DNA of 64,000 bases from Salegentibacter lacus. GTDB taxonomy: Bacteria; Bacteroidota; Bacteroidia; Flavobacteriales; Flavobacteriaceae. Location of the stretch: NCBI RefSeq assembly GCF_020164555.1, contig NZ_JAIQZB010000017.1, forward strand, positions 1-64,000, in the 5' to 3' direction. Positions 37,546 to 54,032 of the stretch are shown here, piece after piece (position 1 is the stretch's first letter; each line of letters opens with the position of its first letter). The notes under the pieces were generated by a model. The model saw only the letters and a list, made by a program, of their open reading frames with translations, was not told the DNA's origin and searched no databases. Position numbers and translations under genes: made by a program.

Positions 37546-38526
37546 TTATTCTTTGGCTTCAAAATACTGATAACCGTCTATAATATCCAGATAAACACCG
37601 TCAAAGTCGGCATTAGTTATTTTGGTTAGATACGCGTTTTCGCTTCCATATATTATTTTTTTCCAATCCTCGTTCCAGTATTCTACCTTAAAATTTCCTT
37701 CCCAATAGGGATTCTCTTCTACAAGCCAGTTTGGATAATTAGAACTCCACTTATCTTTCCAGTAGAAACGGTAATTTTCAGCTTCACCAATAGACATATA
37801 AGCAATTACTAATCGGTCTCCACCGTTTTTCTTCTTTTTCAACTGCTTAATTTCTTCAGAGGTGAATGTTTCGTTGTTAAAAAATAGATCCATTACAATT
37901 AGGTCGTAATTAGTAAAGGAAAGTTCAGCAATTAGGTCTTGCTTATTAGAATATTCAGCGTAGTTAATCAGATATAAGAAGTTCTGTGCTTCAGTAAGTA
38001 CATTTATGTCTTTGCTGTTTTCATTAAAAACCGAATATACAGGAATTCTATCCAGCCCTCGGCTTGACGCAGCAAAAGAAATGTAATTGTTCTCTTCATT
38101 TAGCTGATACGAGTTCTTCATTAGTTGAGGATTGTAGCAATAATCTGTAACAAGTACTTGTTTTCCATATTCTTTTGCGAGATCAAGGTATTCTCTCAAA
38201 TATGTATTGTCAGCTTTTGGTGTGATTTGGTTGAACTTAGGATAACCATAAAAAAGATCTTCCTGGGCTACCGCGTCTATAGCATTTAAATAATCTAATG
38301 CAGGAGTTTTATGAGAATTGCACTTTTTTGAAACCAGCTGAACGCCATTTTGGGGTATAATAATAAAATTAGGATCATCAGCTTTTGTAGCTTCACTTAG
38401 CTCAATTACAAACTGCTGCATTTCGTGACGGTAATCTATATTTACTATCGGTTCCTGTGCCTTATGTTCAAAGCAGGAAAGTAATAAGCAACATAGCATA
38501 TAGGTGCTTATTTTAAAGAAGTTCAT
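37546..38526 (-). CDS. GH114-type (endo-alpha-1,4-polygalactosaminidase-like) lipoprotein
   Basis: A 326-residue lipoprotein (lipobox LLSC, Cys18). The body is a TIM-barrel hydrolase of the TM1410/GH114 type: YDLIVMDLFF, LVIAYMSIGEAENYRFYWKDKW (abbreviated), NPYWEGNFKVEYWNEDW and FDGVYLDIIDGYQYF, where the Glu of SIGEAE and Asp of YLDIID are likely active-site residues. GH114 enzymes cleave alpha-1,4-galactosaminoglycan, and the PelA hydrolase domain is of a related type. It is divergently transcribed from the PelF-like gene, so it probably belongs to that exopolysaccharide system. It has an N-terminal extension of about 170 residues compared with the paralogue at 41862. Confidence 0.78.
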   Translation of the reverse strand: MNFFKISTYMLCCLLLSCFEHKAQEPIVNIDYRHEMQQFVIELSEATKADDPNFIIIPQNGVQLVSKKCNSHKTPALDYLNAIDAVAQEDLFYGYPKFNQITPKADNTYLREYLDLAKEYGKQVLVTDYCYNPQLMKNSYQLNEENNYISFAASSRGLDRIPVYSVFNENSKDINVLTEAQNFLYLINYAEYSNKQDLIAELSFTNYDLIVMDLFFNNETFTSEEIKQLKKKKNGGDRLVIAYMSIGEAENYRFYWKDKWSSNYPNWLVEENPYWEGNFKVEYWNEDWKKIIYGSENAYLTKITNADFDGVYLDIIDGYQYFEAKE

Positions 38527-38545
38527 AGTAGCGGTAAATTTCCTA

Positions 38546-38553
38546 CAAATGTA
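38546..38553 (-). promoter_or_regulatory. Putative -7 box of the GH114 lipoprotein gene
   Basis: On the minus strand TACATTTG matches TAnnTTTG and lies 19 nt upstream of the ATG at 38526. No clear -33 TTG. Confidence 0.45.
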
Positions 38554-38689
38554 AGTGAAATTACATTACATAAATTGTCATTAAAAAGAATCATTCTTTA
38601 TAAGATAAAATCCTACAGGCCTGAATATTTATCAAATTAACGAGCAAATTTAAATTTAAGTTTTGTATTCAAAATTTATGATATAGAAG

Positions 38690-38720
38690 TTGCCAAGTGA
38701 ATGATTTTAACATATTTTTG
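38690..38720 (+). promoter_or_regulatory. Promoter of the Pel-like operon
   Basis: TTG (38690-38692), 20 nt, then TATTTTTG (38713-38720): a full consensus match. The start site would be near 38727, between a GTG codon at 38697 and the ATG at 38736, so the promoter decides for ATG 38736 as the pelF start. Confidence 0.65.
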
Positions 38721-38735
38721 GCACAAAGCGTTTTA

Positions 38736-40259
38736 ATGGCTAAACCATCTGTATTGCTTATTTTGGAAGGTACCTACCCTTTTAATGGAGGCGGCGTCTC
38801 TACCTGGGCGCATACTTTATGCAACAGGGTTAGTAATGTAGATTTTAAATTGTATTCTATAAATGCTTCTTTCGAGAAGGAATTTAAGTATAAACTAAGC
38901 GATAATATTAGCGAAGTAATACAAGTTCCTCTTTGGACTCCAGATGAGCCTTATGACTATATAAGTTACGGGGAGGAATATTACAAAACGGTAGCTAAAA
39001 AGGAATGGACTAATGATGAGGTAGTTGCCCAAAAGTTTATTCCTATTTTTAGAGGTTTACTGGAATTTATTTATAGCGACGACAGGGATATTGAGGACCT
39101 TGATATAATTTTTCACCAACTGTGGTTTTATTTTGAAGATTACGATTATAAAGAAACCATTAGAAATGAGCAGGTTTGGTTAACTTATCGAGATACCCTT
39201 GCAGAATTTATTATCGGGGAACGTAACCCTGATGCTTCTTTAATAGATATCACCATTGGTTTACGCTGGATTTACAGATTTTTGATCCCTCTTGCCATTG
39301 TAAATATTCCCAGGGTAGATGTATCCCATTTAACTCTTAGCGGATTTCCCGTAATCCCGGCGCTTATTGCGCATTATAAGTACGGGACGCCTATTATATT
39401 AACGGAGCACGGAGTTTTTATAAGAGAAAGGTTACTGGCCATTAATAATTCAGAATACCCGTATTTTCTAAAGAATTTACTTATTCGGTTTTCTGAAGCC
39501 ATTGCCCGTTTGGTTTATCATAAGGCCGAGGTAATTATTTCGGTAAATAAATTCAATCAAAAATGGGAAAAATGGTATGGTGCCGATCCGGAGAAATTTA
39601 GAATAATTTATAACGGTATTGATCCTAATGTATTTAAACCTGGTCCAAAACCGGCGCACCTAAAAGATATTCCTACAGTAGTAGCCTTGGCAAGGATATT
39701 CGAATTAAAAGATATTCTTACTATGATTAGATCTTGCGCCGTAGTTAAGAGAACCATTGCCAACGTGCAATACCTGGTTTATGGTGATGATGATGCCGTG
39801 CCTGAATATACCAAAGAATGTCTTGATCTTATCGCAGAATTAGATTTACAAAACAATTTTAAGTTGATGGGAACAAGGAGTAATCCGCAGGACGTTTTTC
39901 TAGAGGGAGATATTTCCATCTTAACTTCTATTTCTGAAGGATTTCCTTATACAGTTATTGAATCTATGGGTTGCGGTATCCCCGTGGTCTCTACCGATGT
40001 GGGCGGAGTAAAAGAAGCGCTTGATGATAGCTGTGGTTTTACCTGCAAACCAAAGGATGCCGAAGAGATTGGTAAAAATGTGCTTAAATTGCTTTTAAAT
40101 GAAAATTTAAGAAAAACTATGGGGAAAAATGCCAGGGAAAGAGTCTTAGGTAATTTTACCTTATCTAAATTTATAGGAGAATATGAAGCAATTTATGAAG
40201 AGATTGTAAAAACAGGCAAAGTAGAAAAAAAGCTTACCAAGATTGAAGATTTTTCCTGA
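38736..40259 (+). CDS. pelF: PelF-type glycosyltransferase (GT4)
   Basis: A 507-residue cytoplasmic GT4 glycosyltransferase, in Pel systems the enzyme that polymerises UDP-activated sugar (GalNAc type). The start LLILEGTYPFNGGGVSTWAH is diagnostic for PelF (EGTYP...GGVSxW). Other elements: LTEHGVFIRER, RIIYNGIDPNVFKPG, VVALARIFELKDI and the E-x7-E nucleotide-sugar motif SEGFPYTVIESMGCG (Glu401, Glu409). First gene of a five-gene unit with a 2-nt gap to the PelG-like gene. GTG 38697 is rejected because it precedes the predicted transcription start. Confidence 0.92.
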   Translation: MAKPSVLLILEGTYPFNGGGVSTWAHTLCNRVSNVDFKLYSINASFEKEFKYKLSDNISEVIQVPLWTPDEPYDYISYGEEYYKTVAKKEWTNDEVVAQKFIPIFRGLLEFIYSDDRDIEDLDIIFHQLWFYFEDYDYKETIRNEQVWLTYRDTLAEFIIGERNPDASLIDITIGLRWIYRFLIPLAIVNIPRVDVSHLTLSGFPVIPALIAHYKYGTPIILTEHGVFIRERLLAINNSEYPYFLKNLLIRFSEAIARLVYHKAEVIISVNKFNQKWEKWYGADPEKFRIIYNGIDPNVFKPGPKPAHLKDIPTVVALARIFELKDILTMIRSCAVVKRTIANVQYLVYGDDDAVPEYTKECLDLIAELDLQNNFKLMGTRSNPQDVFLEGDISILTSISEGFPYTVIESMGCGIPVVSTDVGGVKEALDDSCGFTCKPKDAEEIGKNVLKLLLNENLRKTMGKNARERVLGNFTLSKFIGEYEAIYEEIVKTGKVEKKLTKIEDFS

Positions 40260-40261
40260 AA

Positions 40262-41875
40262 ATGAATAAAGATCAAATTAAAGCTATTGCTAAACTTGTG
40301 GTTGCGGTTAAAGAGCGTAACGGTAAACCTGTGAATGTTTTTGTAGTTGCTGCCACAATAGAATCTTTTGGAATTAGGGAAGTAGATGTAAAAGAAGATT
40401 ATGGATTTGAAAGTATAATGCATCTTTCAAACTATATTTATAAAGCTTACGATGCCATAACCCTGGCAAATCTTAAAAATAATAACCAGCGTATTGCCGA
40501 GGCAAAAACCTATAAAAGGCTGGCTCTAACCGAATATATTACTACAAAAAATACTAAACGCTTTCTTGTAGATTACAGTTCTGGGCTTTTTCATTTATTT
40601 CCGGTTTTTCTCCAGGTGTTTGCTATAATATTATTTGGATTTTCTTTATGGACCTACTCACACTTTAATAACCTGCAATCTACCTCGGTAGTGCTTGGGG
40701 TGATTATTGGATTTATTACCAGTGCGGGCTTTGTACAGGTTATAGGGAAACAAGTATCGTACTATTGGTATAACAAAGATTACCATATGGCCAGGTATTC
40801 TACCATACAAATTATAAAAAACGGGACTATTGCTATATTAGGTTTTTTCGTATTTTCGGTAATTATCAATTTTGTTATTCCACTCTACAGCTTTCTATTT
40901 GTGGTGATTACTTTTGTTTATGCCCTGTTTATAGGGTTTCTCCTCTTAGTTTTAGCGCCCTTATACGCCTTAAAACAAAGATGGATGCTTTCTTTAAGCG
41001 TTTTTGTAGGTACTGCTTTGGCACTTTTCCTTCATTTTTATACTGATTTGCATCCGTATTTTATTCATTGGATTGGTATTCTAGTTGCTTCTTTAATTTC
41101 AGTAGGTTATATCTATACTTTCTTTTATTATAAACTAAAAAATAACACAGCGGTAAAAAAGAAGCCTAAAGTAATGCTTTCGTTATATCGAAATTTTAAT
41201 TACTTCTTATACGGAACGTTTATTTTTCTTTTTGTTTTCCTGGACAGGATTGTTGCGTGGTCTTCTACTTTAAACAGAGATATTCCCTATATAATATATT
41301 ACGAAAAAGATTATGAGATAGGAATGGATCTCGCTATTCTAATTTTCTTTTTATTAGGTGGGGTAATGGAATATGCAATTCATTCCTACATACGGCACAT
41401 GGATTTTCATCAATTACAAACAAATTATTCAGATTTTCAGAGTTTCAACGATAAAATGAAAAGGATGTACTTTAAACATTTACGTCTCTTTGCACTTAGT
41501 GCCTCTGGTATTGCTGTATTATTATATCTTATCGTTACACAACCCTGGGGATATACCTCTGGTTTTGATGAAATTCTTAGTCCTTTGAGCATAAAAGTTT
41601 GTATTCTTGGAAGTATTGGCTATTTATTTCTTAGCCTGGGGATGCTTAATGTATTGTATCTTTATACGTTAGGGCAACATAGAAAACCACTTATTGCTAT
41701 TATAAGCGCTTTTTTAGTCAATTTTATAATTGGGGTTCTTTTAAGTAGATGGGTCTCCTATGAATACAGCGTTATTGGAATGCTGGTAGGCTCCTTACTA
41801 TTTGCAACGCTCACCACACGGGAAACATACAGTTTCTTTAAAAATCTGGATTATTACTATTATGCATCTTATTAA
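40262..41875 (+). CDS. pelG: PelG-like polysaccharide transporter with N-terminal extra domain
   Basis: A 537-residue polytopic protein with about 12 membrane helices, thought to move the glycan over the inner membrane as PelG (MOP superfamily) does. Segments such as FVFLDRIVAWSS, YIIYYEKDYEIGMDLAILIFF, GVMEYAIHSYIRHMDFHQLQ and a C-terminal LDYYYYASY resemble PelG. PelG is about 456 residues; here about 105 N-terminal residues before the first helix are additional, soluble and helical (KAIAKLVVAVKERNGKPVNVFVVAATIE; GFESIMHLSNYIYKAYDAI, abbreviated), of unknown type. Starts 2 nt after pelF and overlaps the next gene by 14 nt. Confidence 0.75.
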   Translation: MNKDQIKAIAKLVVAVKERNGKPVNVFVVAATIESFGIREVDVKEDYGFESIMHLSNYIYKAYDAITLANLKNNNQRIAEAKTYKRLALTEYITTKNTKRFLVDYSSGLFHLFPVFLQVFAIILFGFSLWTYSHFNNLQSTSVVLGVIIGFITSAGFVQVIGKQVSYYWYNKDYHMARYSTIQIIKNGTIAILGFFVFSVIINFVIPLYSFLFVVITFVYALFIGFLLLVLAPLYALKQRWMLSLSVFVGTALALFLHFYTDLHPYFIHWIGILVASLISVGYIYTFFYYKLKNNTAVKKKPKVMLSLYRNFNYFLYGTFIFLFVFLDRIVAWSSTLNRDIPYIIYYEKDYEIGMDLAILIFFLLGGVMEYAIHSYIRHMDFHQLQTNYSDFQSFNDKMKRMYFKHLRLFALSASGIAVLLYLIVTQPWGYTSGFDEILSPLSIKVCILGSIGYLFLSLGMLNVLYLYTLGQHRKPLIAIISAFLVNFIIGVLLSRWVSYEYSVIGMLVGSLLFATLTTRETYSFFKNLDYYYYASY

Positions 41876-42668
41876 AATACTTATGATAACAGGCGCAATT
41901 TGTTTAAATACTGCCCAGTCGGTCGCCCAAAAACTTACTCAGGAAAAGCAGGTGCTTTTCACTTATGGCGATTTTTATCCGGCAGAGGTTTCAGGCTATG
42001 AAATTCTGGTTATAGAAAGTGCACATTTTGATAGTGAAGATATCGCTGTTTTAAAACAAAACAACAATACGGTTTTAGCCTACATAAGTCTTGGAGAAGT
42101 AAATGAAGCTGCAGCCCACTTTCCCGTATTAAAAGATTTCACCTTCGGAAAAAATGAAATATGGAATAGCCATATTTTGGATATTGAAAATGAAGAAACA
42201 CGGGAAGCGCTAATGGCCATTTTTGATTACAATATGAAAAAAGGACTGGACGGAATGTTTTTAGATAATATTGATAATTATACAGAATTTGGGCCTACTC
42301 CAGAGAAGAAGGAGGCATTAATTGATTTTTTAAAGGTTTTAAATATAGTTTATCCCAATATTTATTTAATGCAAAATGCCGGAGTTTCGATTATAAAAGA
42401 TACTCATCCTTATATAGAATCGGTAGCAAAAGAAAGCATAGCTACAGATTTTAATTTTTTATACAGCAAATATCAATTGAGAGATGAAGAAGTATTTAAA
42501 CAGCTTTTAGAGGAACTTAATGAAGTTTACAAGAAATATGAAGTCCCGGTTGTTTTAATTGAATATGCTGAGACACCAGAATTAAAAAAAGCTATTAAAC
42601 AAAGATTAGAGCAGACCAATTGGCCCTATTTTATTGGGAAAATAGACTTACAAGATATTCCTGATTAA
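41862..42668 (+). CDS. Secreted GH114-type polygalactosaminidase-like hydrolase
   Basis: A 268-residue exported protein: signal peptide LIKILMITGAICLNTAQSVA-Q, then a compact TIM barrel: YEILVIESAHFDSED, VLAYISLGEVNEAAAHFP, DGMFLDNIDNYTEFGPTPEK and VPVVLIEYAETPE. The LxYISLGE and FLDNIDNY segments match the GH114/TM1410 family and the paralogue at 37546. It could correspond to the PelA hydrolase domain as a separate protein. ATG 41862, inside the end of the PelG-like gene, is preferred to TTG 41802 because it begins the signal peptide. It has no lipobox, unlike the paralogue. Confidence 0.8.
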   Translation: MHLIKILMITGAICLNTAQSVAQKLTQEKQVLFTYGDFYPAEVSGYEILVIESAHFDSEDIAVLKQNNNTVLAYISLGEVNEAAAHFPVLKDFTFGKNEIWNSHILDIENEETREALMAIFDYNMKKGLDGMFLDNIDNYTEFGPTPEKKEALIDFLKVLNIVYPNIYLMQNAGVSIIKDTHPYIESVAKESIATDFNFLYSKYQLRDEEVFKQLLEELNEVYKKYEVPVVLIEYAETPELKKAIKQRLEQTNWPYFIGKIDLQDIPD

Positions 42669-42684
42669 GGTTGAAATTTTTTAT

Positions 42685-44676
42685 ATGTTTTTAGAACCCT
42701 ACCTATTAACCGGCCCCTTGAGGATCATTCTGTTGTTTGTATTAATTTTATTAATACATCGCATAATTTCTACCAGGATTTCGGCACAAACAGCCTTAAA
42801 CTTCCTGGTTCCAACCATTACACTGGTTATGGCTGCCGTGTTGCTCGGTGGTTTTATATTGATTCTAGCCAATATTTTTGATCTCTTCGTTATAATAAGT
42901 ATTGTAATTGCCCTGACTATTTTAACCTTTATGAACCTTAATTTTAATCATTCGATAAAAGGTCAGCTACGCAAAATTTACACCCGAATTATTTTATATG
43001 TTACCATAAAACTTGAAAGAGGCCAGAATTTTCTGGATAGAGATAATATTATTAAACCAACATATAAACATCCAGAACACGGACTTTCCCAATACAATAA
43101 AAACTGGCAATTAGCCATAGGGCTTTTGTTACCGGTAGTAACATATATTTCCCGAAGTTCACTTTTTCAAGAGGACATTTATACACTTTCTCCGGCCTGG
43201 TTCAGTAAACTGGATTTTATAAACGGTATATCTTCTAAAACTTGGTTTTTTCAATCTGGGGAAATGATGGGAGATTATTTACTTATAAATCTATACGCTA
43301 AATTAACTCACATTACCAACGCACAAGCTTTGCAATCTTTTGGACTCTTAGAATCGGCTTTGCTTTCCTTAATAATTTATTGGATAGTTTTTAAAATTTC
43401 AAGAAAACACGCTCCCGGTATATTCGCAGGTTTAAGTTTTGCGCTTTTTTATGCCTTTCTGCCTATAAATATAGAGTTGCTTGCCGAGCACAAATCGGTT
43501 TTTACCGCGCTTATTATTGCTTTGCCTACTATGTTTTTCTGTATTTATCCTCAAAGTTTTCGGTTTAATAAAAAGGCTAAATTTAATTGGTTAATTGCGT
43601 TGTTTAGTGCTATTCTATTGTTAGACTTATTTGTTGGCATTCTACTTGTATTTCCTTATTTAATCATACTTTTCTTTTTTAAGCTTAAAGATAATTTAAG
43701 GCAAATCACACAAATCTTTCTAGCCTATTTTTCTTCTGTAGCTTTTATAGGAGTAATTTATGGTGTTGCTGCATTTATCACTAAAGAGGATTTCGGCGAA
43801 TTTATTTCATCTAATTTCTACTCTTTTGATACTTACACCTATAATCCACATTTAGTTGCTCCATTAAAAGACCTTATGTATTATTACCAGATAGCAGCTT
43901 TGGCTTTTTTGATTATTACGGTGTACAGCTATATTAAAAAACCAAAAAAATGGTTAGCCAGTATTGTCTTTCTTATTTTTATAAACGTTTTATTCGGAGT
44001 TTACCGGTTAGACAAAGTTTTGGTTGACCTGGATGTTTTAAGTCAGGTGCTTTGCATATTCATTCCCATATTCTTTGGTATTGTTCTTAACGTAATAGTT
44101 AATCTGTTTTCCATTTTTAATTTTTCGTCCCGGGTAGGAACACGTCTGGAAGTAGGAATAGGTGCTTCAGTAATTGCGGCACTTACATTCTTGACTTTTC
44201 CGCCTGTTGCGACTTTAAATTTTGAAGAAAGTAAAACAGAAAATATGATTTTTGAGGCTTACTCAAAAATACAATCAGATAATTTACCTTATTCGTATGC
44301 GGTTGTGAATGCTTTACCATACTTCAGTTTTAGTAAGAACAGTCATTATTATTATAACTACGATTATTTTAATAATACCTACATAGAGCGAGATAGAAGA
44401 TTCAATAGGTATAAAGACAACTTACAATACCTGCAGAATAACCCCGATATTATTTTACCCGAAACAATGTATGTCTTTGTCTATGAGGATAAAAAGGAAA
44501 GCAAGGTAGCTATGCAAAAAATAATTAGCAAACAAAGAGATTTAACTATTGAAAGAATTGAACTTTTAGAATTAAAAGGAAGAAATGTTGGAGTGTATTA
44601 TGAAGATAAAAATTTAAAAGTCTACCAGATTGAGAACAGGGAGCGTGCTAGTAATATTAATCAACTATTATTTTGA
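42685..44676 (+). CDS. Unrecognised 663-residue polytopic membrane protein of the Pel-like operon
   Basis: Three helices at the N-terminus (about 10-30, 40-65, 68-90), a basic cytoplasmic segment (KGQLRKIYTRII; about 95-140), then about ten more helices to residue 510, and a soluble C-terminal part of 150 residues rich in Tyr/Asn/Asp (YYYNYDYFNNTYIERDRRF). The helix pattern with long loops is reminiscent of GT-C-type glycosyltransferases, but no family can be named by eye. There is no GGDEF/GAF or TPR part like PelD or PelE. It sits 16 nt after the hydrolase gene and overlaps the next by 1 nt. Confidence 0.7.
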   Translation: MFLEPYLLTGPLRIILLFVLILLIHRIISTRISAQTALNFLVPTITLVMAAVLLGGFILILANIFDLFVIISIVIALTILTFMNLNFNHSIKGQLRKIYTRIILYVTIKLERGQNFLDRDNIIKPTYKHPEHGLSQYNKNWQLAIGLLLPVVTYISRSSLFQEDIYTLSPAWFSKLDFINGISSKTWFFQSGEMMGDYLLINLYAKLTHITNAQALQSFGLLESALLSLIIYWIVFKISRKHAPGIFAGLSFALFYAFLPINIELLAEHKSVFTALIIALPTMFFCIYPQSFRFNKKAKFNWLIALFSAILLLDLFVGILLVFPYLIILFFFKLKDNLRQITQIFLAYFSSVAFIGVIYGVAAFITKEDFGEFISSNFYSFDTYTYNPHLVAPLKDLMYYYQIAALAFLIITVYSYIKKPKKWLASIVFLIFINVLFGVYRLDKVLVDLDVLSQVLCIFIPIFFGIVLNVIVNLFSIFNFSSRVGTRLEVGIGASVIAALTFLTFPPVATLNFEESKTENMIFEAYSKIQSDNLPYSYAVVNALPYFSFSKNSHYYYNYDYFNNTYIERDRRFNRYKDNLQYLQNNPDIILPETMYVFVYEDKKESKVAMQKIISKQRDLTIERIELLELKGRNVGVYYEDKNLKVYQIENRERASNINQLLF

Positions 44677-47600
44677 TGAAAATATACTTATCAATCCGAG
44701 TATTAAAAGCAATTTTTATAGCGTTTTTCCTATTTGTAACAGGTTGCGCGAAAGATATAGATGAGGAAAAGATAGAAGCAGATAATCCAAGGGTGGAGTA
44801 TGACCAAATGAGTAGTACTCCTTTGGTAACTTATCTCCAGGAGCCTGGAAATGATTTAAGCATTCAGAATAGTAGGCATATTAGAAAAGCGCTTAATTAC
44901 GCTAAAATTCCTTACAATGAAATAAATAGATTTGATTTTAATGAGAAACCTGAAGTAGCTAATTCTGCAAAGGTAATTGTAGTTTATGATCTTGAACGAT
45001 TGAATAAATTGGCAATGAATTATCTAATTGATTTTGTTGCAAAAGGCGGCCATATATTTATTCCTTCGGTAGGCACTAATAAAAATTATGGATTTTTAGC
45101 GGGAGTAAAGGGAGATGCAGGCTTTCAAATTGATACTGCAGCACAGGGGTTTTTATTCCAGTCAAATTTTCTTCCGGCATTAAAAGGAAAAAAATATAGA
45201 AATGGAAATAAACATTTTGGCCTGCAAGCCGATAACTTCAAAGATGATATTGAGATTATAGCCACTTCAATTTCTGTAGAAGATTATCCTTTGATAATAA
45301 GAAATAAAATAGGCAATGGTTCGGTAATTTCATTTAATACAGACCAGTATTCAGAAAAACGGGAGAGAGGATTATTCTTTGCTGCAATTTTGCAGGGTTT
45401 AGAGGGTGTGCCTTACCCCATAGCAAATGTATCAAGTATCATGTTAGACGATTTCCCGGCGCCGCTTTATAACGTGAAAATGGAGCCGATACAATCAGAA
45501 ATGAATATTAGTCAGGCACGTTTTTATACGGAAGTTTGGTGGAAAGATATGCTTAAACTAGCCAGGGAAGAAGGACTGGAGTATTCAGCTTATGTTTGTT
45601 TTGATTATTCTAATCGTACATCGCCGCCGTTTAATTTTCCAGAATGGGAACAGTCTGTCTTAACAGGTTCGAATGGTGCCAATGCAGCAGATAAACTAAT
45701 GGTAGAGTTTGATAATTCTATTCATGAAGTAGCTTTACACGGTTACAATCACGCTTCTCTTACAATTGAAGAATGGCCCAATAAAAACTATATGGGCTTA
45801 AGTCTTCAAGCGGTAAAAAAACGCTGGTCGGCGCTGGGTTATGGTGAATTACCAGTTTCTTATGTACCACCATCTAATACTATAGATAGTATTGGCTTTG
45901 TTGCCTTAGAAGAGAATATACCCAAAATTATATACAATGCCAGTATTTACCTGGGAAATTTTGAAGACGGTGGAGATAGAGAATTTGATAGTGAACCTTA
46001 TAATAACCATTTTTTTAATTTTCCACGAATCACCAGCGGCTTTGCTTTGACTTCTACCAGGCAATTCAATCAGCAATCTTTATATCTCTATACGGGCTTA
46101 TGGACGCATTTTATTCACCCGGATGATATTTACCAGATTCCCGGGGAGGAGCCCCTGGAAAGTGCGGGTGATTATACTTTAAGGAATATAAACTCTTATG
46201 GTTGGAAAGTTTCAGAAGATGGGTCTCCGGGTTTATTTCCAAGGTTTCGTCAGTACATTAAAGATGTAAAGAAAACCTTTCCTTTGATTCGATTTTTAAA
46301 AGTTTCAGAAGCAGCAAAAATTACTCAAAACTGGAGGGAAATACCTTATAATTTTACTGAAAATGATAGTGAAGTTGAAGTTGCTGCAAGTATTCAAAAT
46401 AGCGAGAACCAAAACTTCTGGTTCGCCTATATTTCAGAAAAAAATACTGTTGAGGCTGAAGATTACCTGAAAAGTAAGCAACTTAAATTTACCAAAACTC
46501 CTTTTTTAGAGGGGTTTCTTTTCAATATTCAAACCCAGGAAAAAACATTAAGCTTACCGAAGTTTGATAATAAATATTCTGAAAATTTACTAGGCGGACT
46601 AATGGAAAATTATGAATCTTATCTTTTGGTAGAAGCTTCACAAGAACTTGGTGATATTGAAAAAGAAATAAATGATTTAAAATCTAAAATTTCTCAAAGT
46701 AACCAATTTGAACGTGAGGATTGGACGAATCTATTTCAGTATTTAGGTTGGGAAAGTCGGCAAAATGAGATCTGGCCTTTGCTGGAAAAAAAATACAGCC
46801 AGGATAAATCTTCAGTTTACGTAAATCTTTCATCAGAATTCACAAGTCAAAGCGATTATTCAGATCTTGAAACCAGAAAGCGCTGGATGCTTAGACAAAT
46901 AGAGTTGCGTCCCGAAAATGTAAAACTTAGAAGAAATTTTATAGCTTATTTTGGAAATGATACCGATGTGCAGTTAAGTAGAGAAGAATTACTGAAACTT
47001 ATAGAAAACACTGAGGTAGATGAAGAGCGTTTTGCCTATTTCTTACTGCTTAACGATAAACATCCTGAAGCAGCTTTTAATTTGGTAAAGGATATAGAAC
47101 CTTGTCGGGAAGATTTTAGCCTGGCGGCTTCTACAATATCTTGGGTATTTGCCGATGCTAAAGAGTATGAAAAGGCAATTTCCTGGTCTAAATGCAGTGA
47201 AGACATTCCTGAAAGTGCCATAGTTGACTGGCGGGTGCAATCAGGGGAATATGAATTTTTAGAAGAAAAGAATTTTCCACTTTATATAGAATATCTTATT
47301 GCCGATAAGGATAAAAGAGCCGCACAGGAATTATTGGAAATAGAACCTTGCCGCGAAGACTTAAAACATTTGGCAACAACAATCGCCTATACTTATGGCG
47401 GCCAGGGAAGTTATAGAAAAGCCCTGGAATGGTCTTCCTGCGCTTCGGGTTTCCCTTTAGTTGAACGAATGCAATGGTTATACTCTCTGGAGAATTTCAG
47501 CGAAGTAGAGCGTTTGTATGCAAATTATTCTAAAAAGGCTAATCCAAAAGAAAAGGAAGCTATTCAGGTTTTTATGACTGAATATTATTTAGGACGTAGC

Positions 47601-48668
47601 GAAATGCTTAAAGCCTGGGAGCTCGCTTCAGAATTGCCAAATTCAATCAATAAAGAACGCATAAGAACACAACTAAATAGTAGCGTTGTTTATCTTAATA
47701 CTGAACAAAAAAGATTTTTATTAAAAGAATATCCATCTTTCTTTTATCCAGAGGTCGCTTCTAAAATAAAGCAAAATCTAAGGTTAACTGAAGGTGATTT
47801 TTTACAAATTGGCAGTAATATTATTAGTGATAGGTTAGATCCAACGTCTGTGGGTATAGAAGCCGTGTATGGTACTCGAGATCAGAAGTACAATCAACAT
47901 CAATTTGGGCTAAATCGTTATAATGCCTATGCAATTCCGTTCCAGGGCGAATTGGAGAGTAATGAAGACATGGAGTTATACGGCTTGGTTTACAGGTTTA
48001 AAACCAGGGAAAGAATTGAAAAATTTAATTATGGTTTGGGAACACGGCTGGAATTTAATGAAGCAGGGAAAGCCTATCTTCATTTAGAAGCTTCAGCTTC
48101 TATCGCAAAAGACAGCTTGTATAGCTCCTTTCAATTTTTTAGAAAACCGGCAATTACCGGCCCGGCTTATACTCTGGATATTTATCAAACACAATTAAAT
48201 GTATATGAAGAACTTCGGTTTAAAAAGAAATTTCAGGCTGTTTTTTATTTAGAAGGAAACCATTATAACGACGAAGATATAATGGATGTGCAGGCCCTTA
48301 CCAGTTTATCTATGGATTTTAAACTGAATAAAATGGCCAAATTTAGACCTTATACCGAATTTTCAGGAATGTTGGGTAATTCTAATAGATCTAGCGGCTT
48401 TCCATATTGGACTTTAGATGAAAGATTTTATGGCGGTTTAGGAATGGCTTATGAATATGTAAATGAAAATAATTTATGGAAGATTAACCTTGACGCCGGA
48501 TATTTTCTGGATACGTTTTCCGATGAATTTCAAAGGTATCGTGGGAGTGTGGTATGGCCAATCACGAAGTATCTCCATCTTAATACGCAAGCCGAATTCT
48601 ATACCCTTAAAAACTTTTATTCCAACAACTTCACTTTTGGCTTAAAATACTTTTTGAAAGATAATTAA
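44676..48668 (+). CDS. Fusion lipoprotein: DUF2194 deacetylase-like + helical repeats + outer-membrane beta-barrel (PelA/PelB-like)
   Basis: A 1330-residue protein. Residues 1-24: signal with lipobox VTGC. About 40-245: GATase/flavodoxin-like region of DUF2194. About 250-560: polysaccharide-deacetylase-like part with MLDDFPAP (Asp258, Asp259), ALHGYNHAS (His355, His359) and YVPPSN, matching the PelA deacetylase role. About 650-1045: helical repeats of TPR/SEL1 character, including two with EPCRED...WSxC. About 1050-1330: alternating aromatic strands ending FTFGLKYFLKDN, an outer-membrane barrel as in PelB. The start ATG 44676 overlaps the preceding stop (TGATG); TTG 44673 is less likely. Predicted to deacetylate and export the polymer. 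The end overlaps the convergent btuD by 4 bp. Confidence 0.78.
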   Translation: MKIYLSIRVLKAIFIAFFLFVTGCAKDIDEEKIEADNPRVEYDQMSSTPLVTYLQEPGNDLSIQNSRHIRKALNYAKIPYNEINRFDFNEKPEVANSAKVIVVYDLERLNKLAMNYLIDFVAKGGHIFIPSVGTNKNYGFLAGVKGDAGFQIDTAAQGFLFQSNFLPALKGKKYRNGNKHFGLQADNFKDDIEIIATSISVEDYPLIIRNKIGNGSVISFNTDQYSEKRERGLFFAAILQGLEGVPYPIANVSSIMLDDFPAPLYNVKMEPIQSEMNISQARFYTEVWWKDMLKLAREEGLEYSAYVCFDYSNRTSPPFNFPEWEQSVLTGSNGANAADKLMVEFDNSIHEVALHGYNHASLTIEEWPNKNYMGLSLQAVKKRWSALGYGELPVSYVPPSNTIDSIGFVALEENIPKIIYNASIYLGNFEDGGDREFDSEPYNNHFFNFPRITSGFALTSTRQFNQQSLYLYTGLWTHFIHPDDIYQIPGEEPLESAGDYTLRNINSYGWKVSEDGSPGLFPRFRQYIKDVKKTFPLIRFLKVSEAAKITQNWREIPYNFTENDSEVEVAASIQNSENQNFWFAYISEKNTVEAEDYLKSKQLKFTKTPFLEGFLFNIQTQEKTLSLPKFDNKYSENLLGGLMENYESYLLVEASQELGDIEKEINDLKSKISQSNQFEREDWTNLFQYLGWESRQNEIWPLLEKKYSQDKSSVYVNLSSEFTSQSDYSDLETRKRWMLRQIELRPENVKLRRNFIAYFGNDTDVQLSREELLKLIENTEVDEERFAYFLLLNDKHPEAAFNLVKDIEPCREDFSLAASTISWVFADAKEYEKAISWSKCSEDIPESAIVDWRVQSGEYEFLEEKNFPLYIEYLIADKDKRAAQELLEIEPCREDLKHLATTIAYTYGGQGSYRKALEWSSCASGFPLVERMQWLYSLENFSEVERLYANYSKKANPKEKEAIQVFMTEYYLGRSEMLKAWELASELPNSINKERIRTQLNSSVVYLNTEQKRFLLKEYPSFFYPEVASKIKQNLRLTEGDFLQIGSNIISDRLDPTSVGIEAVYGTRDQKYNQHQFGLNRYNAYAIPFQGELESNEDMELYGLVYRFKTRERIEKFNYGLGTRLEFNEAGKAYLHLEASASIAKDSLYSSFQFFRKPAITGPAYTLDIYQTQLNVYEELRFKKKFQAVFYLEGNHYNDEDIMDVQALTSLSMDFKLNKMAKFRPYTEFSGMLGNSNRSSGFPYWTLDERFYGGLGMAYEYVNENNLWKINLDAGYFLDTFSDEFQRYRGSVVWPITKYLHLNTQAEFYTLKNFYSNNFTFGLKYFLKDN

Positions 48669-49459
48669 GGATTAATTTTAAATGAAGCTGAAGCTTTATC
48701 AAAAACGATTAACCCTTCCGGAAAAACAGTAGAAAATGCTCCTGATTCCAGTAGTTCTTTAGGAGAACCGGTGGTAACTTTATTGTTTTGCATCAAAATA
48801 ATCTTATCACAAAGCTGAATTGCCAGGTTAATTTCGTGCGAGGCAAAAACAATGGCTTTATTTGTTTTCCGGGTGAGTTTTTTGAGCAATTTCAGTACGT
48901 AGGCTTTATGATATAGATCTAAATGCGTGGTGGGTTCATCTAAAATAACCAGTGGCGTATTTTGGGCAATGGCACGGGCAATTAACACTTTTTGAAGCTG
49001 GCCATCACTTAACTCGTAGCATTTTTTGTGCTGCAAATCTTCAATCCCTACATTCTGCAAAGATTTTTTGATTTGGCGTAAATCGTTTTTACTTAATCTC
49101 CCAATCCAATTGGTATAGGGTTGTCGGCCAAGCGCTACCAGTTCAAAAACGCTTAAATTTTTGGAAATAGGTTGTTCGGTGAGCACGAGACTCACTAAAG
49201 AAGCAAGTTCTAAAGAATCTATATCCTGAATTTGCTCATTTTTAACCAATACTTTTCCCTTCAGCGCATCCTGAACTCCGCTTAAAGTTCTTAAAAATGT
49301 AGATTTTCCGACTCCGTTAACGCCAATAACAGCAACCAATTCCCCTTCGTTTACTTCAATATTAATCGCTTCAGTAATAATGGTTTTTTCGGTTTTATTA
49401 CTGTAACCAATATCAAGATCAATGGTTTTAAGGATGCTATGTTTTTCAGTATGGTTCAA
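48665..49459 (-). CDS. btuD: ABC transporter ATP-binding protein, B12/iron type
   Basis: ATPase of a periplasmic-binding-protein-dependent importer. The 264-residue protein has Walker A GVNGVGKST, Q-loop LVLTEQPIS, signature LSDGQLQKVLIARAIAQ, Walker B LVILDEPTTHLD and the H-loop VFASHEINLA, as in FecE/BtuD. Start: TTG 49459, 2 nt after the stop of the permease gene; no ATG is available before the Walker A. Location next to a cobalamin riboswitch and btuB favours vitamin B12 over iron-siderophore as the substrate. Confidence 0.85.
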   Translation of the reverse strand: MNHTEKHSILKTIDLDIGYSNKTEKTIITEAINIEVNEGELVAVIGVNGVGKSTFLRTLSGVQDALKGKVLVKNEQIQDIDSLELASLVSLVLTEQPISKNLSVFELVALGRQPYTNWIGRLSKNDLRQIKKSLQNVGIEDLQHKKCYELSDGQLQKVLIARAIAQNTPLVILDEPTTHLDLYHKAYVLKLLKKLTRKTNKAIVFASHEINLAIQLCDKIILMQNNKVTTGSPKELLESGAFSTVFPEGLIVFDKASASFKINP

Positions 49460-49461
49460 CT

Positions 49462-50493
49462 TCAGAATAAAAATTTGCGTTTACGCACTAAAAGCCAAAT
49501 TACTACCGGTGCGCCAATTAGCGAAGTTATAGCATTTATAGGTAAAGTATATTCCTGTCCCGGCATTTGTGCGGCGATATCACAAATAAGCATTAAAGCT
49601 GCACCGCCCAAAATAACGGCAGGAACTAAAATACTGTGGTTATTTACAGGAATTATTTGCCGAATCAAATGCGGAACGGCTAAACCTACAAAAGCAATTG
49701 GCCCGGCAAAAGCGGTTATGCTTCCTGCAAGTAAACTGGTAGCAATTATTATAATAAGTCGGTTTTTTTGAATACTTACACCCAGGCTTTTGGCATATTG
49801 TTCGCCCAGTAATAAGGTGTTGAGGTTTTTTATACAGGAAACCGCTAAAATTATTCCCACAAACCAAAACATTGCCAGAATTCCAACTTCATTCCAGGAG
49901 AGATCGCCCAAACTTCCAAAAGACCAGAATACATATTGCTGAAGTTGGGCTGCCGGACTAAAATATGAAAGCACGCTTACCACTGCAGCGGTTAAACTTG
50001 CAAACATTAAACCTATAATTAGAATAGCCATAGTATCGCGAAGTCGAAGCGAAGCAAGCATGACGGCGATAAGCACCAGTAAACTCCCTAAGCTGGAAGC
50101 AATAACCAAACTCCATTTTGAAAGTAAAATACCGGCAAAAGCGCCCCCAAAGACCGAAGCTCCCATAATAACAATTGCCACACCCAAACTGGCACCACTG
50201 CTCAAGCCTAAAACATAGGGTCCAGCAAGGGGATTGCGAAATAGGGTTTGCATTAAAAGCCCGCTAATGGCAAGTCCGGAGCCGGTTATGATTGCTGTGA
50301 TTGCTTTGGGTAACCGGTATTCCACAATTATATATCGCCAGGTTTCTTTAGAAACTTCTAAATTAAAAATTGACGCAAAAACATCTTTAAATGGAATATT
50401 TACTGAGCCCAAACTGATGTTTAAAAAACCCAGAAAGATTACCCCAAAAAAAAGGAGTAGAAGTGGAAGTACATATTTTTGGGACTGCAACAA
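49462..50493 (-). CDS. btuC: FecCD/BtuC-family permease
   Basis: Inner-membrane permease with about ten helices and 343 residues. Family segments include YRLPKAITAIITGSGLAISGLLMQTLFRNPLAGPYVLGLSSGASLG (abbreviated), WSFGSLGDLSW, GPIAFVGLAVPHLIR and EYTLPINAITSLIGAPVVIWLL. No ATG is present at the 5' end; TTG 50493 or 50490 is the likely start, so the exact N-terminus is unsure. It lies 136 nt after the binding-protein gene and 2 nt before btuD. Confidence 0.87.
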   Translation of the reverse strand: MLQSQKYVLPLLLLFFGVIFLGFLNISLGSVNIPFKDVFASIFNLEVSKETWRYIIVEYRLPKAITAIITGSGLAISGLLMQTLFRNPLAGPYVLGLSSGASLGVAIVIMGASVFGGAFAGILLSKWSLVIASSLGSLLVLIAVMLASLRLRDTMAILIIGLMFASLTAAVVSVLSYFSPAAQLQQYVFWSFGSLGDLSWNEVGILAMFWFVGIILAVSCIKNLNTLLLGEQYAKSLGVSIQKNRLIIIIATSLLAGSITAFAGPIAFVGLAVPHLIRQIIPVNNHSILVPAVILGGAALMLICDIAAQMPGQEYTLPINAITSLIGAPVVIWLLVRKRKFLF

Positions 50494-50629
50494 GGCCGGT
50501 GATTTATTTCGATGTAAATATCTGAAATAAAATGAGGAGATAAAATTAAAGAAGAAGGATAATACAATATTAGCCTATATCTATTACAATGGACAAATTT
50601 CTATTTGAGTTCAAATTCCAAGCAGAAGA

Positions 50630-51784
50630 TTAATCTTTCAACGCCTTAAAAAATGTGGTTTGGTAATCTGATAGTAAATCGGGATGAAAAATTGAAACTA
50701 AATCTTTCAGGACCAAATCCGGGCGTTGAGGGCCAAGTTCAAAGTATAGTACACCACCGGTTTCTCCTTTGGTTAGGCTTACGCTGTAAACATTTTTATT
50801 CTGTACGGCTTCAAATTGCTGGTAATGTTGAGATTCTTTTAAAAGCTGTGTATAAGAAGTATATTGTCCCGCGCTTATCCAAAAATCGGAATCCTGGGCT
50901 TTGTCAAGTACATTTTCAAAAGATAAAGCCATACTACCGTTACCTTCTGTATCGGCATAAATATAATTAGCATTAGCATCTTTTATAAATTGGGCCTGCC
51001 AGGAATTTCCGTACGGTAAATACCACTGGTCTTTGTACATTGCTCCGCTTAGAACTTTCGGAGTCTTTTCTGCCGATTTTGCTAATTCTTTCGCCTTAGT
51101 ATAATCGGTTTCTATTTCATTAAAAATTTTTTCAGCTTCATCTAATTTATCGTAAAATACGCCGAAGAATTTAATCCATTCGGCTTTTCCCAAAGGAGTT
51201 TTTTCAGTCCAATCGCCGTTGTACATAACGGGAATTCCAGTTTTCTGAATAGTTTCAAATGTTTTATTATTTCCGTCTATGGCAAAACCAATCACTAATT
51301 GAGGATCAAGATTTATAAGCACTTCGGTGTTGATGTTTTCGTTCTTCCCTAATTCCTTAATTTTTCCTGAATTAATTAGTTTTCTGGTTTTTTCTGAAGA
51401 AATATAATCAAGACCGGGAAATCCTTTTAGGCTGGTTTCTTCATTTAAAGCTTCTAACGCCGGAATATGTGTAGTAGAAGTCACCACCATTTTCTCTATC
51501 GGAATTTTTACTTTTTGATCGTAGTTTAAATCTTCTGGGATCTCAGTATTTTTTCTCGTAAGAAGGTAAGTAAAAGTCTTTTCAGCATCCGGCCAGGGTG
51601 TTTCTATATCTAAAATATAATAATCTCCGAAATCACTGATACTAAAATTGTTAGCATAGCTTAAATCAATGGATTTTTCAGGTTGAGCAGAAACTGTATT
51701 TTGATTGTTTTGCTCGTTTTTGCAGGCGGTAAATACTAAAAACAGGAGTAAGAAATTAAGCCTTTTTACAGTCTTTATTTTCAT
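50630..51784 (-). CDS. btuF: BtuF-like periplasmic binding lipoprotein
   Basis: A 384-residue lipoprotein (LVFTAC, Cys about 21) of the helical-backbone metal/vitamin-receptor family: VVTSTTHIPALEAL, FPGLDYISSEKTRKLINSGKIKELG (abbreviated), LDPQLVIGFAID, and a C-terminal lobe with PYGNSWQAQFIKDANANYIY and GPQRPDLVLKDLVSIFHPDL. It brings substrate to the BtuCD transporter. At the head of the divergent transcript facing the cobalamin riboswitch and btuB, so corrinoid is the likely ligand. No riboswitch is seen on its own side. Confidence 0.83.
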   Translation of the reverse strand: MKIKTVKRLNFLLLFLVFTACKNEQNNQNTVSAQPEKSIDLSYANNFSISDFGDYYILDIETPWPDAEKTFTYLLTRKNTEIPEDLNYDQKVKIPIEKMVVTSTTHIPALEALNEETSLKGFPGLDYISSEKTRKLINSGKIKELGKNENINTEVLINLDPQLVIGFAIDGNNKTFETIQKTGIPVMYNGDWTEKTPLGKAEWIKFFGVFYDKLDEAEKIFNEIETDYTKAKELAKSAEKTPKVLSGAMYKDQWYLPYGNSWQAQFIKDANANYIYADTEGNGSMALSFENVLDKAQDSDFWISAGQYTSYTQLLKESQHYQQFEAVQNKNVYSVSLTKGETGGVLYFELGPQRPDLVLKDLVSIFHPDLLSDYQTTFFKALKD

Positions 51785-51907
51785 TTTTTAATTGGTTAAA
51801 TGAAATTGAATTAAAGTGATTTTATTTAAAACAGGAATTCTCAAAAGTAAGATTATTTAGAATTTTATCGTTGCAACTCAGATAAATGTTTAATTTCGCA
51901 TTGAAAT

Positions 51908-52150
51908 TTTTGGTTCGGATGTGATTTTTTCATGCCGATTAAAAGGGAATCAGGAAGAAGTAGGAAATTAGAAATATTTCATTTCATATTTCAAACTTTG
52001 CAAAGCCTGAGCTGTTCCCGCAACTGTAAGCTTAGTTCCGATTTTTACATCGGAATGCTTGTTGTTATCACTTCAAAAACCACTGTTCCTTTTTAGGGAT
52101 GGGAAGGTAAACAACAAGACGCGAGCCAGGAGACCTGCCAGAATATAACC
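51908..52150 (+). promoter_or_regulatory. Cobalamin riboswitch upstream of btuB
   Basis: Conserved cobalamin-riboswitch blocks occur in order: AAAAGGGAATCAGG (51941-51954), GCTGTTCCCGCAACTGTAAG (52011-52030) and GCGAGCCAGGAGACCTGCC (52121-52139). GGTT at 51912 can pair with AACC at 52147-52150 as the closing stem. Downstream, GACTTT (52163-52168) and AAAGTC (52176-52181) form a small hairpin just before the AGAGGG ribosome-binding site and the ATG at 52191, so control is probably at translation. A near-consensus -7 box, TAATTTCG, lies at 51891. Confidence 0.93.
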
Positions 52151-52190
52151 AATAAATTCTTAGACTTTCGGGATAAAAGTCAGAGGGCAG

Positions 52191-54032
52191 ATGAAAAAAA
52201 CGCACTTTTATACTATATTCCTTGGCCTGCTTTGTGGCTTGCCGGTACTTGCTCAAAACGACACATTAAACGTTTTGGACGAGGTATTTTTGACCGATAC
52301 CAAGTTGAAAGATTTTTCTACCGGCCAGCAGGTTACTGTTTTAAATGATTCAATTTTAAAGAAAAACGGGGCGCTGCTAACTTCAGCCTTAAATTTTAAT
52401 ACTAATATCTATTTTAAAGAAAATGGCCTGGGGATGGTTTCCTCACCTTCTTTTCGAGGCACGAGCGCTTCACAAACTGCAGTTTTATGGAATGGGATTA
52501 ATATTAATTCACAGTTTAATGGCCAAACCGATTTCAACACACTAAACGCTGCCGGATACGATAATATTAGTGTTCGCGGTGGGGGAGGAAGTGTAGTTTA
52601 CGGTACCGGAGCTATTGGTGGAACTGTGCATTTAAATACGAATCTTGATTTTAGCGAAAAGACGAAGCAGGATATCTTTTTGAAATATGGAAGTTTTAAT
52701 ACTCTGGATGCCCGGTATAAAGTAAAAACTTCAGGAAATAAATGGAGTTTAAGTGTTGCTGCGGCCCGGAATTCTTCAGATAATGACTATGAATGGCCCA
52801 TTGAAGGTAAAAAGAACGAAAACGGTGAATTTTATAACAACAATCTAAACCTGGGTTTTGCTTACCGATTAAATGAAAAAAGCACTTTAAAATTTTACAG
52901 TGAAATTTTTGACGGGGAAAGGCATTTCTCACTTATTCGTCCTTCGGAAACCAAAACAAAATATCAGAATTTTGATACCCGAAACCTACTGGAATGGGTA
53001 AGTGAATTTGGAGATTTTGTCTCGGTGGCCCGGCTGGCACTTCTGGATGAGAACTACCGGTATTACGCGAATATAGCTACTGAAAACTATTCTTCAGGAG
53101 ATGCACAAACCTTTATTGGTAAATACGATTTGAATTATTCGGTATCAAAAACCCTGGAACTTAATTCCGTATTAACAAATACCTATACCGATGGCAACGG
53201 CTCTGGAATTACAGAGAATACCCGAAACATCTTTTCTTCGGCAGTATTAATGAAACACAGGCCGTTTCAGAAATTTCAATACGAATTGGGAATTAGAAAA
53301 GAAATAACCGATAATTATGAGAGTCCATTGTTATTTTCTGCAGGCACACATTATAAATTTAACGATTTCTATAGCTTAAAGATGAATATTTCCAGGAATT
53401 TTAGAATTCCTACCTACAATGACTTATACTGGGCGGGAGCAGGAAATCCAGAGCTTAACCCCGAAACTTCCAATCAGGTAGAACTGGGAAATCATTTTAA
53501 ACATAAAGACTTCAAATTTAGCCTTACCGGATATTATATTCAAATTGATGATATGATTCGGTGGTTGCCATCCGAAACTGGAATGTGGCGCCCCAGGAAC
53601 GAAGAAAGTGTGGAAACTTATGGTATTGAAGTGCTAACCGGTTGGCAGAAACAAATTTTTAAAGGCCATCAAATAAGCGCTTCAGGTACCTATGCCTATA
53701 CGGTTTCTGAAAATATGAATACCGGTTACCAGCTTATTTATGTTCCCTTTCACAAGGCTACAGGGTCACTCACTTATGCTTTCAAAGATTTCAGCATAGA
53801 TTATCAGTTGCTTTACAATGGGGAAGTTTATACCAGATCTGATAATAATTCCCGCTATAATATGGATGCCTATTTAGTTTCAAACCTTGGGTTGTCATAT
53901 AATTTTGGCAAGAAAAATACTTATAAAATTGGTGCAAGAGTGCTTAATTTTTTTGATGAAGAATACCGAAGTGTAGAAGACCGGTGGATGCCCGGCAGAA
54001 ATTTTAATATATACCTAAACCTTAATTTTTAA
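52191..54032 (+). CDS. btuB: TonB-dependent vitamin B12 receptor
   Basis: Outer-membrane receptor of 613 residues. After a signal peptide (HFYTIFLGLLCGLPVLA-Q) comes a TonB-box-like VLDEVFLTD, a plug domain (NIYFKENGLGMVSSPSFRGTSASQTAVLWNGI, abbreviated; GGGSVVYGTGAIGG) and a 22-strand barrel with typical motifs (LKFYSEIFDGERHF; NFRIPTYNDLYWAGAGNPELNPE) ending in NIYLNLNF. The length is like E. coli BtuB. The upstream cobalamin riboswitch shows that the substrate is B12 or a relative. Followed by a BtuG-like lipoprotein gene in the same transcript. Confidence 0.92.
   Translation: MKKTHFYTIFLGLLCGLPVLAQNDTLNVLDEVFLTDTKLKDFSTGQQVTVLNDSILKKNGALLTSALNFNTNIYFKENGLGMVSSPSFRGTSASQTAVLWNGININSQFNGQTDFNTLNAAGYDNISVRGGGGSVVYGTGAIGGTVHLNTNLDFSEKTKQDIFLKYGSFNTLDARYKVKTSGNKWSLSVAAARNSSDNDYEWPIEGKKNENGEFYNNNLNLGFAYRLNEKSTLKFYSEIFDGERHFSLIRPSETKTKYQNFDTRNLLEWVSEFGDFVSVARLALLDENYRYYANIATENYSSGDAQTFIGKYDLNYSVSKTLELNSVLTNTYTDGNGSGITENTRNIFSSAVLMKHRPFQKFQYELGIRKEITDNYESPLLFSAGTHYKFNDFYSLKMNISRNFRIPTYNDLYWAGAGNPELNPETSNQVELGNHFKHKDFKFSLTGYYIQIDDMIRWLPSETGMWRPRNEESVETYGIEVLTGWQKQIFKGHQISASGTYAYTVSENMNTGYQLIYVPFHKATGSLTYAFKDFSIDYQLLYNGEVYTRSDNNSRYNMDAYLVSNLGLSYNFGKKNTYKIGARVLNFFDEEYRSVEDRWMPGRNFNIYLNLNF

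Follow-up and report, generated by a model that had tools for sequence, protein, structure and literature searches.

Proteobacterial Pel exopolysaccharide systems are encoded by PelABCDEFG, and in the known systems for Pel as well as for poly-N-acetylglucosamine (PNAG) modification and export fall to different proteins, with PelA and PgaB each standing apart from the pore. Here we describe a locus of different build at positions 37546-48668 of a 64,000-nucleotide stretch of Salegentibacter lacus DNA (contig NZ_JAIQZB010000017.1, positions 1 to 64,000; hereafter the window), where a cassette of five packed plus-strand genes and one divergent accessory gene probably encode a Pel-type exopolysaccharide system of a Bacteroidota form. 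With PelABCDEFG it shares PelF, a PelG-like transporter, a PelA (GH166)-type hydrolase, a putative deacetylase and a pore of helical repeats and a 16-strand barrel. It differs in that hydrolase and deacetylase are separate proteins, that the deacetylase is of the DUF2194 type and fused to the pore, and that a predicted GT-C glycosyltransferase is added; genes for PelC, PelD and PelE are absent from among the five, and no GGDEF domain was found in the genome. The first-pass annotation of this DNA had proposed a rewired Pel pathway, which holds for PelF, for the split of PelA into a hydrolase and a deacetylase polypeptide and for the deacetylase-pore fusion, whereas the PelG assignment proved remote and a split PelA was already known.

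The Gram-positive pelDEADAFG operons and the Fusobacterium-type operon of Cetobacterium resemble the cassette in keeping the deacetylase separate from the hydrolase, and the latter also shares DUF2194 as its deacetylase gene. Both of these operon types have PelD and PelE, whereas the cassette has neither between its five genes, and Gram-positive Pel lacks the outer membrane pore to which the cassette's deacetylase is fused. The separation of deacetylase and hydrolase was known from Gram-positives (PMC7112168), as were a hydrolase that often lies beside the operon, sometimes divergently as here, and a Pel system with a PelD unable to bind cyclic di-GMP (PMC7112168, PMC12345266). The operon survey PMC7112194 nowhere contains "Bacteroid" in its main text, though its supplements may hold it. 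Searches of the open PMC literature, without supplements and without the full text of PMC8305213 (which mentions pelF, pelG, Bacteroidetes and exopolysaccharide together), for Pel in Bacteroidota or Flavobacteria, for GT-C proteins with pel operons and for DUF2194 brought up no account of the cassette, and as far as these searches go, the deacetylase-pore fusion, the predicted GT-C member, the permuted GH191 hydrolase and the phylum-wide conservation are new.

Conservation of the cassette in Bacteroidota

Named genomes were scanned with the PelG-like protein and the best 80 of 101 relatives were kept as related loci (numbered L), which are not independent because they include close species; L014, L015, L016 and L017 are the same places as L085, L087, L084 and L082 and add nothing to the 80. 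The five genes stand in the same order in 75 of the 80 loci, separated by gaps with a median of 1 base (300 gaps in these 75), while contig ends cut L025, L047 and L057 and frames are broken in L071 and L092. Within the 75, L039 carries a fusion gene split in two, that of L045, L046 and L059 reaches the contig end, and PelF reaches the contig start in L028. Most of the 80 loci belong to Flavobacteriaceae, with Roseivirga and another Cytophagales record among them, and the closest named relative by PelG in this set is Salegentibacter salinarum (93% identity). All of 16 further loci hold the same five genes, 15 of them outside the class.

The gene set is kept together beyond chance, and the neighbourhood survey across Bacteroidota that the first-pass annotation had suggested thus returned the same gene order. 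The annotation had called the locus unusual for a flavobacterium, but this composition is the norm among the Bacteroidota loci found with this PelG. So far we have found the cassette form only in Bacteroidota, and it could serve as a marker for a Pel-type matrix there. L045 and L091 lie on contigs of metagenome-assembled genomes titled Bifidobacterium breve and Limnohabitans, which are probably stray or mislabelled Bacteroidota contigs, and L141 carries a partial second copy of the cassette beside a complete one. In genome samples, the PelF profile PF11997 had matches in 4 of 149 family genomes, with no match in the sole other Salegentibacter genome of that sample, and 10 of 395 genomes of the class (4 at E < 1e-40, 6 weak).

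A putative deacetylase fused to a predicted exopolysaccharide pore

The last gene of the cassette encodes the fusion of deacetylase, repeats and barrel that the first-pass annotation had recognised. Its DUF2194 domain matches PF09960 with 231.7 bits (E 1.9e-68) and the structure 9zau (E 1.7e-40), and an Asp-Asp pair (D259, D260) as well as an HxxxH motif (H356, H360) are conserved across 73 aligned rows. The C-terminal half is confidently modelled as a helical solenoid followed by a 16-strand barrel (mean predicted local distance difference test score, pLDDT, of 89.4) and matches the exopolysaccharide pores PgaA, BcsC and PelB above all other barrels compared, such that the five best fold matches are all pores of this kind (we take the structure 4y25 to be PgaA). 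The fusion shares with them the order of solenoid and barrel and differs by its N-terminal lipoprotein deacetylase domain, which bears out the earlier proposal of a deacetylase joined to a PelB-type pore. A DUF2194 gene also occupies the deacetylase position in the annotated pel operon of Cetobacterium and matches the domain family of the fusion at E 4.6e-40 (hhalign). Two negative hhalign results weigh against a Pel-type role of the fusion: its DUF2194 domain has no detectable sequence relation to the deacetylase part of proteobacterial PelA, and the solenoid-barrel half has none to PelB, which was found by fold comparison only. Since the fusion occurs in a large part of a phylum, the coupling of enzyme and pore is directly testable.

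Synthase, transporter and operon hydrolase

The PelF product matches the NCBIfam equivalog NF038011 with 177.6 bits at a cut-off of 100 and DUF3492 (PF11997) at E 1.2e-55. A tree of 30 proteins unites the 15 Bacteroidota sequences (100/100) and places PelF of Deinococcus, Thermus and Streptomyces next to them (96/91), while six Proteobacteria and Cetobacterium form the other PelF group (100/97). The branch that unites all PelF against other GT4 enzymes has weak support (87/33), and the outgroup includes several very long branches; the tree thus speaks for the PelF-type glycosyltransferase named by the first-pass annotation without proving it. The Deinococcus, Thermus and Streptomyces plasmid loci (L098, L099 and L100) combine PelF with one or more galactosaminidases, the first two also with Agd3-like deacetylases, and are apparently another Pel-like variant.

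The following membrane protein appears to be a remote relative of PelG. Pfam PelG (PF16933) covers its residues 113-534, corresponding to model positions 33-452 of 452, and a comparison of 80 PelG-like rows with 7 PelG by hhalign yields a 405-column alignment at E 0.0018. Much tempers this assignment: the PF16933 score of 28.7 bits falls just below the cut-off of 29, of six family members scanned only two, the window's among them, match the profile at E ≤ 0.01, the NCBIfam search returned no match, comparison with a single proteobacterial PelG returned nothing, and the hhalign probability is only 15%. We keep the PelG-like transporter of the first-pass annotation as a distant relative of PelG. 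Part of its extra N-terminus of ~100 residues recurs in the protein after PelF in the Streptomyces locus (E 4.2e-5), and this extra part aligns with a three-sequence set from Deinococcus, Streptomyces and Thermus at an hhalign probability of 48.5%. In L014 (11563-12516), a further gene just upstream of the accessory hydrolase encodes 317 residues that resemble the C-terminal part of the transporter.

The operon hydrolase is closest to the hydrolase part of PelA, matching the PelA structures 9cgy (E 2.8e-18) and 5tcb (E 1.5e-17) far better than the fungal GH114 enzyme Ega3 (E about 0.05). Its family matches the PelA N-terminus at 99.6% in hhalign, and D155 and E211 are conserved in at least 90% of 77 sequences. 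We would regard it as a putative GH166-like equivalent of that part of PelA. The first-pass annotation had counted two GH114-type hydrolases, and both indeed match Pfam GH114, but their finer families differ (GH166-like and GH191) and one of them is circularly permuted.

A predicted GT-C glycosyltransferase

The 663-residue membrane protein, noted earlier as large and of unknown kind, is present and now has a predicted assignment, with a structure model that resembles GT-C glycosyltransferases in Foldseek. D164 and W172 do not vary among 76 sequences compared. D164 sits just after the model helix 135-162, in a part of the model with a pLDDT of 63-71, and is a candidate for the acidic residue that GT-C enzymes have in the outer loop following their first GT-C helix. 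The prediction is weakened by a mean pLDDT of 61.8 and Foldseek E-values of 1.7e-3 or worse, by residues 1-130 and 515-663 being barely covered in the comparison, and by the lack of a usable sequence match in Pfam, NCBIfam and PDB. No sequence similarity was detected to the GT-C enzymes AglB, PglB, STT3, DPY19, ArnT and Pmt4, from which the protein differs by extra N-terminal helices. If the prediction is true, Pel-type polymers could be further glycosylated or attached to something, a step not in the known Pel model. We also considered a GT-C protein in the pel-like loci of Deinococcus, Thermus and Streptomyces and rejected it, given that the large proteins there are Agd3-like deacetylases or secreted proteins without assignment; no homologue was found in five plasmid loci scanned.

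Circular permutation of the accessory hydrolase

The accessory hydrolase matches TM1410 in two pieces of inverted order. With the window sequence alone, residues 200-323 correspond to TM1410 21-139 (E 3.8e-23) and residues 19-130 to TM1410 135-237 (E 0.057, not significant by itself), and a five-sequence profile finds the same two pieces at E 2.2e-29 and 6.9e-7, with an overall E of 5e-39. The inversion is seen against each of two normal homologues in all 24 family members (the window's and 23 relatives), and rotation by script makes the median member match as one stretch rather than two, lifting the median best-stretch score from 45 to 77 bits with one homologue and from 114 to 145 bits with the other. 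According to PMC12054363, the TM1410 family is now GH191, Asp156 and Glu225 are the putative catalytic pair of TmGH191, and one GH191 enzyme cut Pel; the string "permut" is absent from that paper. By counting along the profile alignment, Asp156 and Glu225 correspond to D314 and E89 of the accessory hydrolase, both invariant in 24/24 members.

Judged by its sequence, the accessory hydrolase belongs to GH191 in circularly permuted form and retains the barrel family and the catalytic Asp and Glu of its normally ordered relatives. Against an enzymatic role in the Pel-type system, TM1410 itself was inactive in the tests reported in PMC12054363. A truncated GH114 pseudogene, an idea that arose from the best GH114 match stopping at profile position 119 of 231, was rejected, as four aligned relatives end alike and the missing half was found at the N-terminus. 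With its catalytic residues intact, the permuted enzyme offers a natural test of how much rewiring this barrel tolerates and is a candidate matrix-cutting enzyme.

Missing Pel genes and regulation

The first-pass annotation had stated that PelC, PelD and PelE are missing, and 75 of 80 loci indeed have no gene for any of them within the run of five, but PelC was sought only there and not in the flanks or the rest of the genome, and the PelD profile (PF16963), which had no match in the S. lacus genome, is uninformative because its control matched nowhere. No GGDEF domain (PF00990) was found in this genome or in five cassette-bearing relatives (6/6; controls matched in 8 of 14 genomes), so that cyclic di-GMP control of the Pseudomonas type is unlikely here, in agreement with the earlier suggestion of a system without evident control by this messenger. 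The S. lacus genome also has no PilZ match. GGDEF proteins were found in 3 of 12 distant cassette genomes searched.

Of the 16 further loci, 14 (L129-L138 and L141-L144) carry an additional PelF-like GT4 gene as well as one for a protein of 518-543 residues between pelG and the hydrolase gene. HD domains were found in 3/3 of the 518-543-residue proteins scanned from these cassettes outside the class, where such proteins may take the regulatory position of PelD. This HD-domain protein is absent from the flavobacterial form, either by loss or from the outset. In L139 the cassette is rearranged: its GT-C and fusion genes are separated by genes for a GAF-SpoIIE phosphatase and a GAF-HD protein, an arrangement that suggests partner-switch control.

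Proposed pathway and alternative explanations

From the gene content and its conservation, the domain assignments, the permutation and the fold predictions we infer the following pathway. PelF would build a hexosamine chain in the cytoplasm, most likely of N-acetylgalactosamine (GalNAc), which the PelG-like protein would move across the inner membrane. The GH166-like hydrolase might then trim it in the periplasm and the DUF2194 domain remove acetyl groups, before the chain leaves via the solenoid and barrel joined to that domain. Because DUF2194 is physically joined to the exit pore, deacetylation and export would take place on one polypeptide, which would do the work of both the PelA deacetylase and PelB and may render PelC dispensable. 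At the periplasmic side of the membrane, the predicted GT-C enzyme would use a polyprenol-linked sugar, probably to decorate the polymer or modify its end. The permuted GH191 could serve as an accessory endo-galactosaminidase, cleaving polymer that is partly deacetylated so that it can be released or remodelled. A wider reading, which we offer tentatively, is that the Bacteroidota hold a separate branch of Pel systems that makes a decorated galactosaminoglycan with polyprenol-dependent periplasmic sugar addition by GT-C and a single deacetylase-exporter, working without cyclic di-GMP in the flavobacterial form and with an HD protein at the regulatory position outside the class.

Some GT-C-fold proteins are inactive subunits, and the 663-residue protein could likewise be an inactive inner membrane scaffold in place of PelD and PelE, given that its gene occurs in every cassette not cut by a contig end, the broken ones included, and that neither of these two genes is found between the five. 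We consider this unlikely: hhalign shows no relation of the protein to PelD or PelE, and the invariance of D164 and W172 is as expected for a working active site. Even less probable to us is that the PelF homologues use another uridine diphosphate sugar and the cassette makes a different polymer, being Pel-like in its parts and not in its product. The remoteness of PelG would fit such a product, as would the long Bacteroidota PelF branch with its nearest relatives in loci of other accessory genes (Deinococcus, Thermus, Streptomyces), but two hydrolases of families linked to alpha-1,4-galactosaminides (GH166 and GH191; PMC12054363) together with a deacetylase fit a GalNAc polymer.

For the permuted GH191, a function unrelated to Pel production, such as attack on the polymer of other organisms or general matrix turnover, is a somewhat stronger contender, though still on the unlikely side. 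The accessory gene adjoins the cassette in only 23 of the 80 loci, and solo copies exist away from pel genes, one where the genome gives no PelF match and another as a second copy in its genome. Where it does adjoin the cassette, the gene lies just upstream of pelF in 22 of 23 loci (9 divergent, one of these with a 91-codon open reading frame scored in between, and 13 on the same strand) and downstream in 1, which favours an accessory role in the Pel-type system. The two solo copies (L117:8660-9643 and L118:8833-9894) each lie near a gene that by eye resembles its counterpart in the other genome.

Gene layout and genomic surroundings

All six genes named in the first-pass annotation are present (Table 1). 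The most likely start of pelF is the ATG at 38736, in keeping with the 507 residues of its relatives, and the start of the GH166-like gene was corrected to 41862.

Table 1. Features of the Pel-type locus in window coordinates
Feature	Position	Strand	Basis or remark
Accessory hydrolase, lipoprotein-like, circularly permuted GH191 (TM1410-type) barrel	37546..38526	-	Putative general acid/base E89 precedes nucleophile D314
Divergent intergenic region between accessory hydrolase and pelF	38527..38735	no strand	
pelF, GT4 family glycosyltransferase with DUF3492, ~507 residues	38736..40259	+	NF038011, PF11997, tree
pelG-like membrane transporter with extra N-terminal domain of ~100 residues	40262..41875	+	PF16933, hhalign
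Secreted GH166-like hydrolase, putative equivalent of the PelA hydrolase part	41862..42668	+	9cgy, hhalign
663-residue polytopic membrane protein, predicted GT-C glycosyltransferase fold	42685..44676	+	Model, D164 conservation
Lipoprotein fusion of DUF2194 deacetylase, helical solenoid and 16-strand exopolysaccharide pore	44676..48668	+	Pfam, model, fold comparison
DUF2194 deacetylase region of the fusion	44769..46454	+	PF09960 E 1.9e-68; 9zau E 1.7e-40
Helical repeat (solenoid) region of the fusion	46581..47792	+	Predicted model; tetratricopeptide repeat (TPR) models match a distant homologue
16-strand beta-barrel of the fusion	47799..48653	+	Best matches PgaA, BcsC, PelB

The host genome has 4.05 Mb and an estimated completeness of 99.99%. 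Ordinary genes for an RmuC-family protein and a beta-lactamase-fold hydrolase flank one side of the locus, and judging by gene size and order the flanking genes are apparently common to close Salegentibacter relatives. More distant relatives have other outer neighbours, by eye for example a helicase, a carboxylase, a large AsmA-like protein or an oxidoreductase; because these neighbours change, we take the five genes as the unit and the divergent gene as accessory. On the other flank, window positions 48665-54032 encode a TonB-dependent receptor and the components of an ATP-binding cassette (ABC) importer, a type of uptake system that serves for cobalamin or siderophores.

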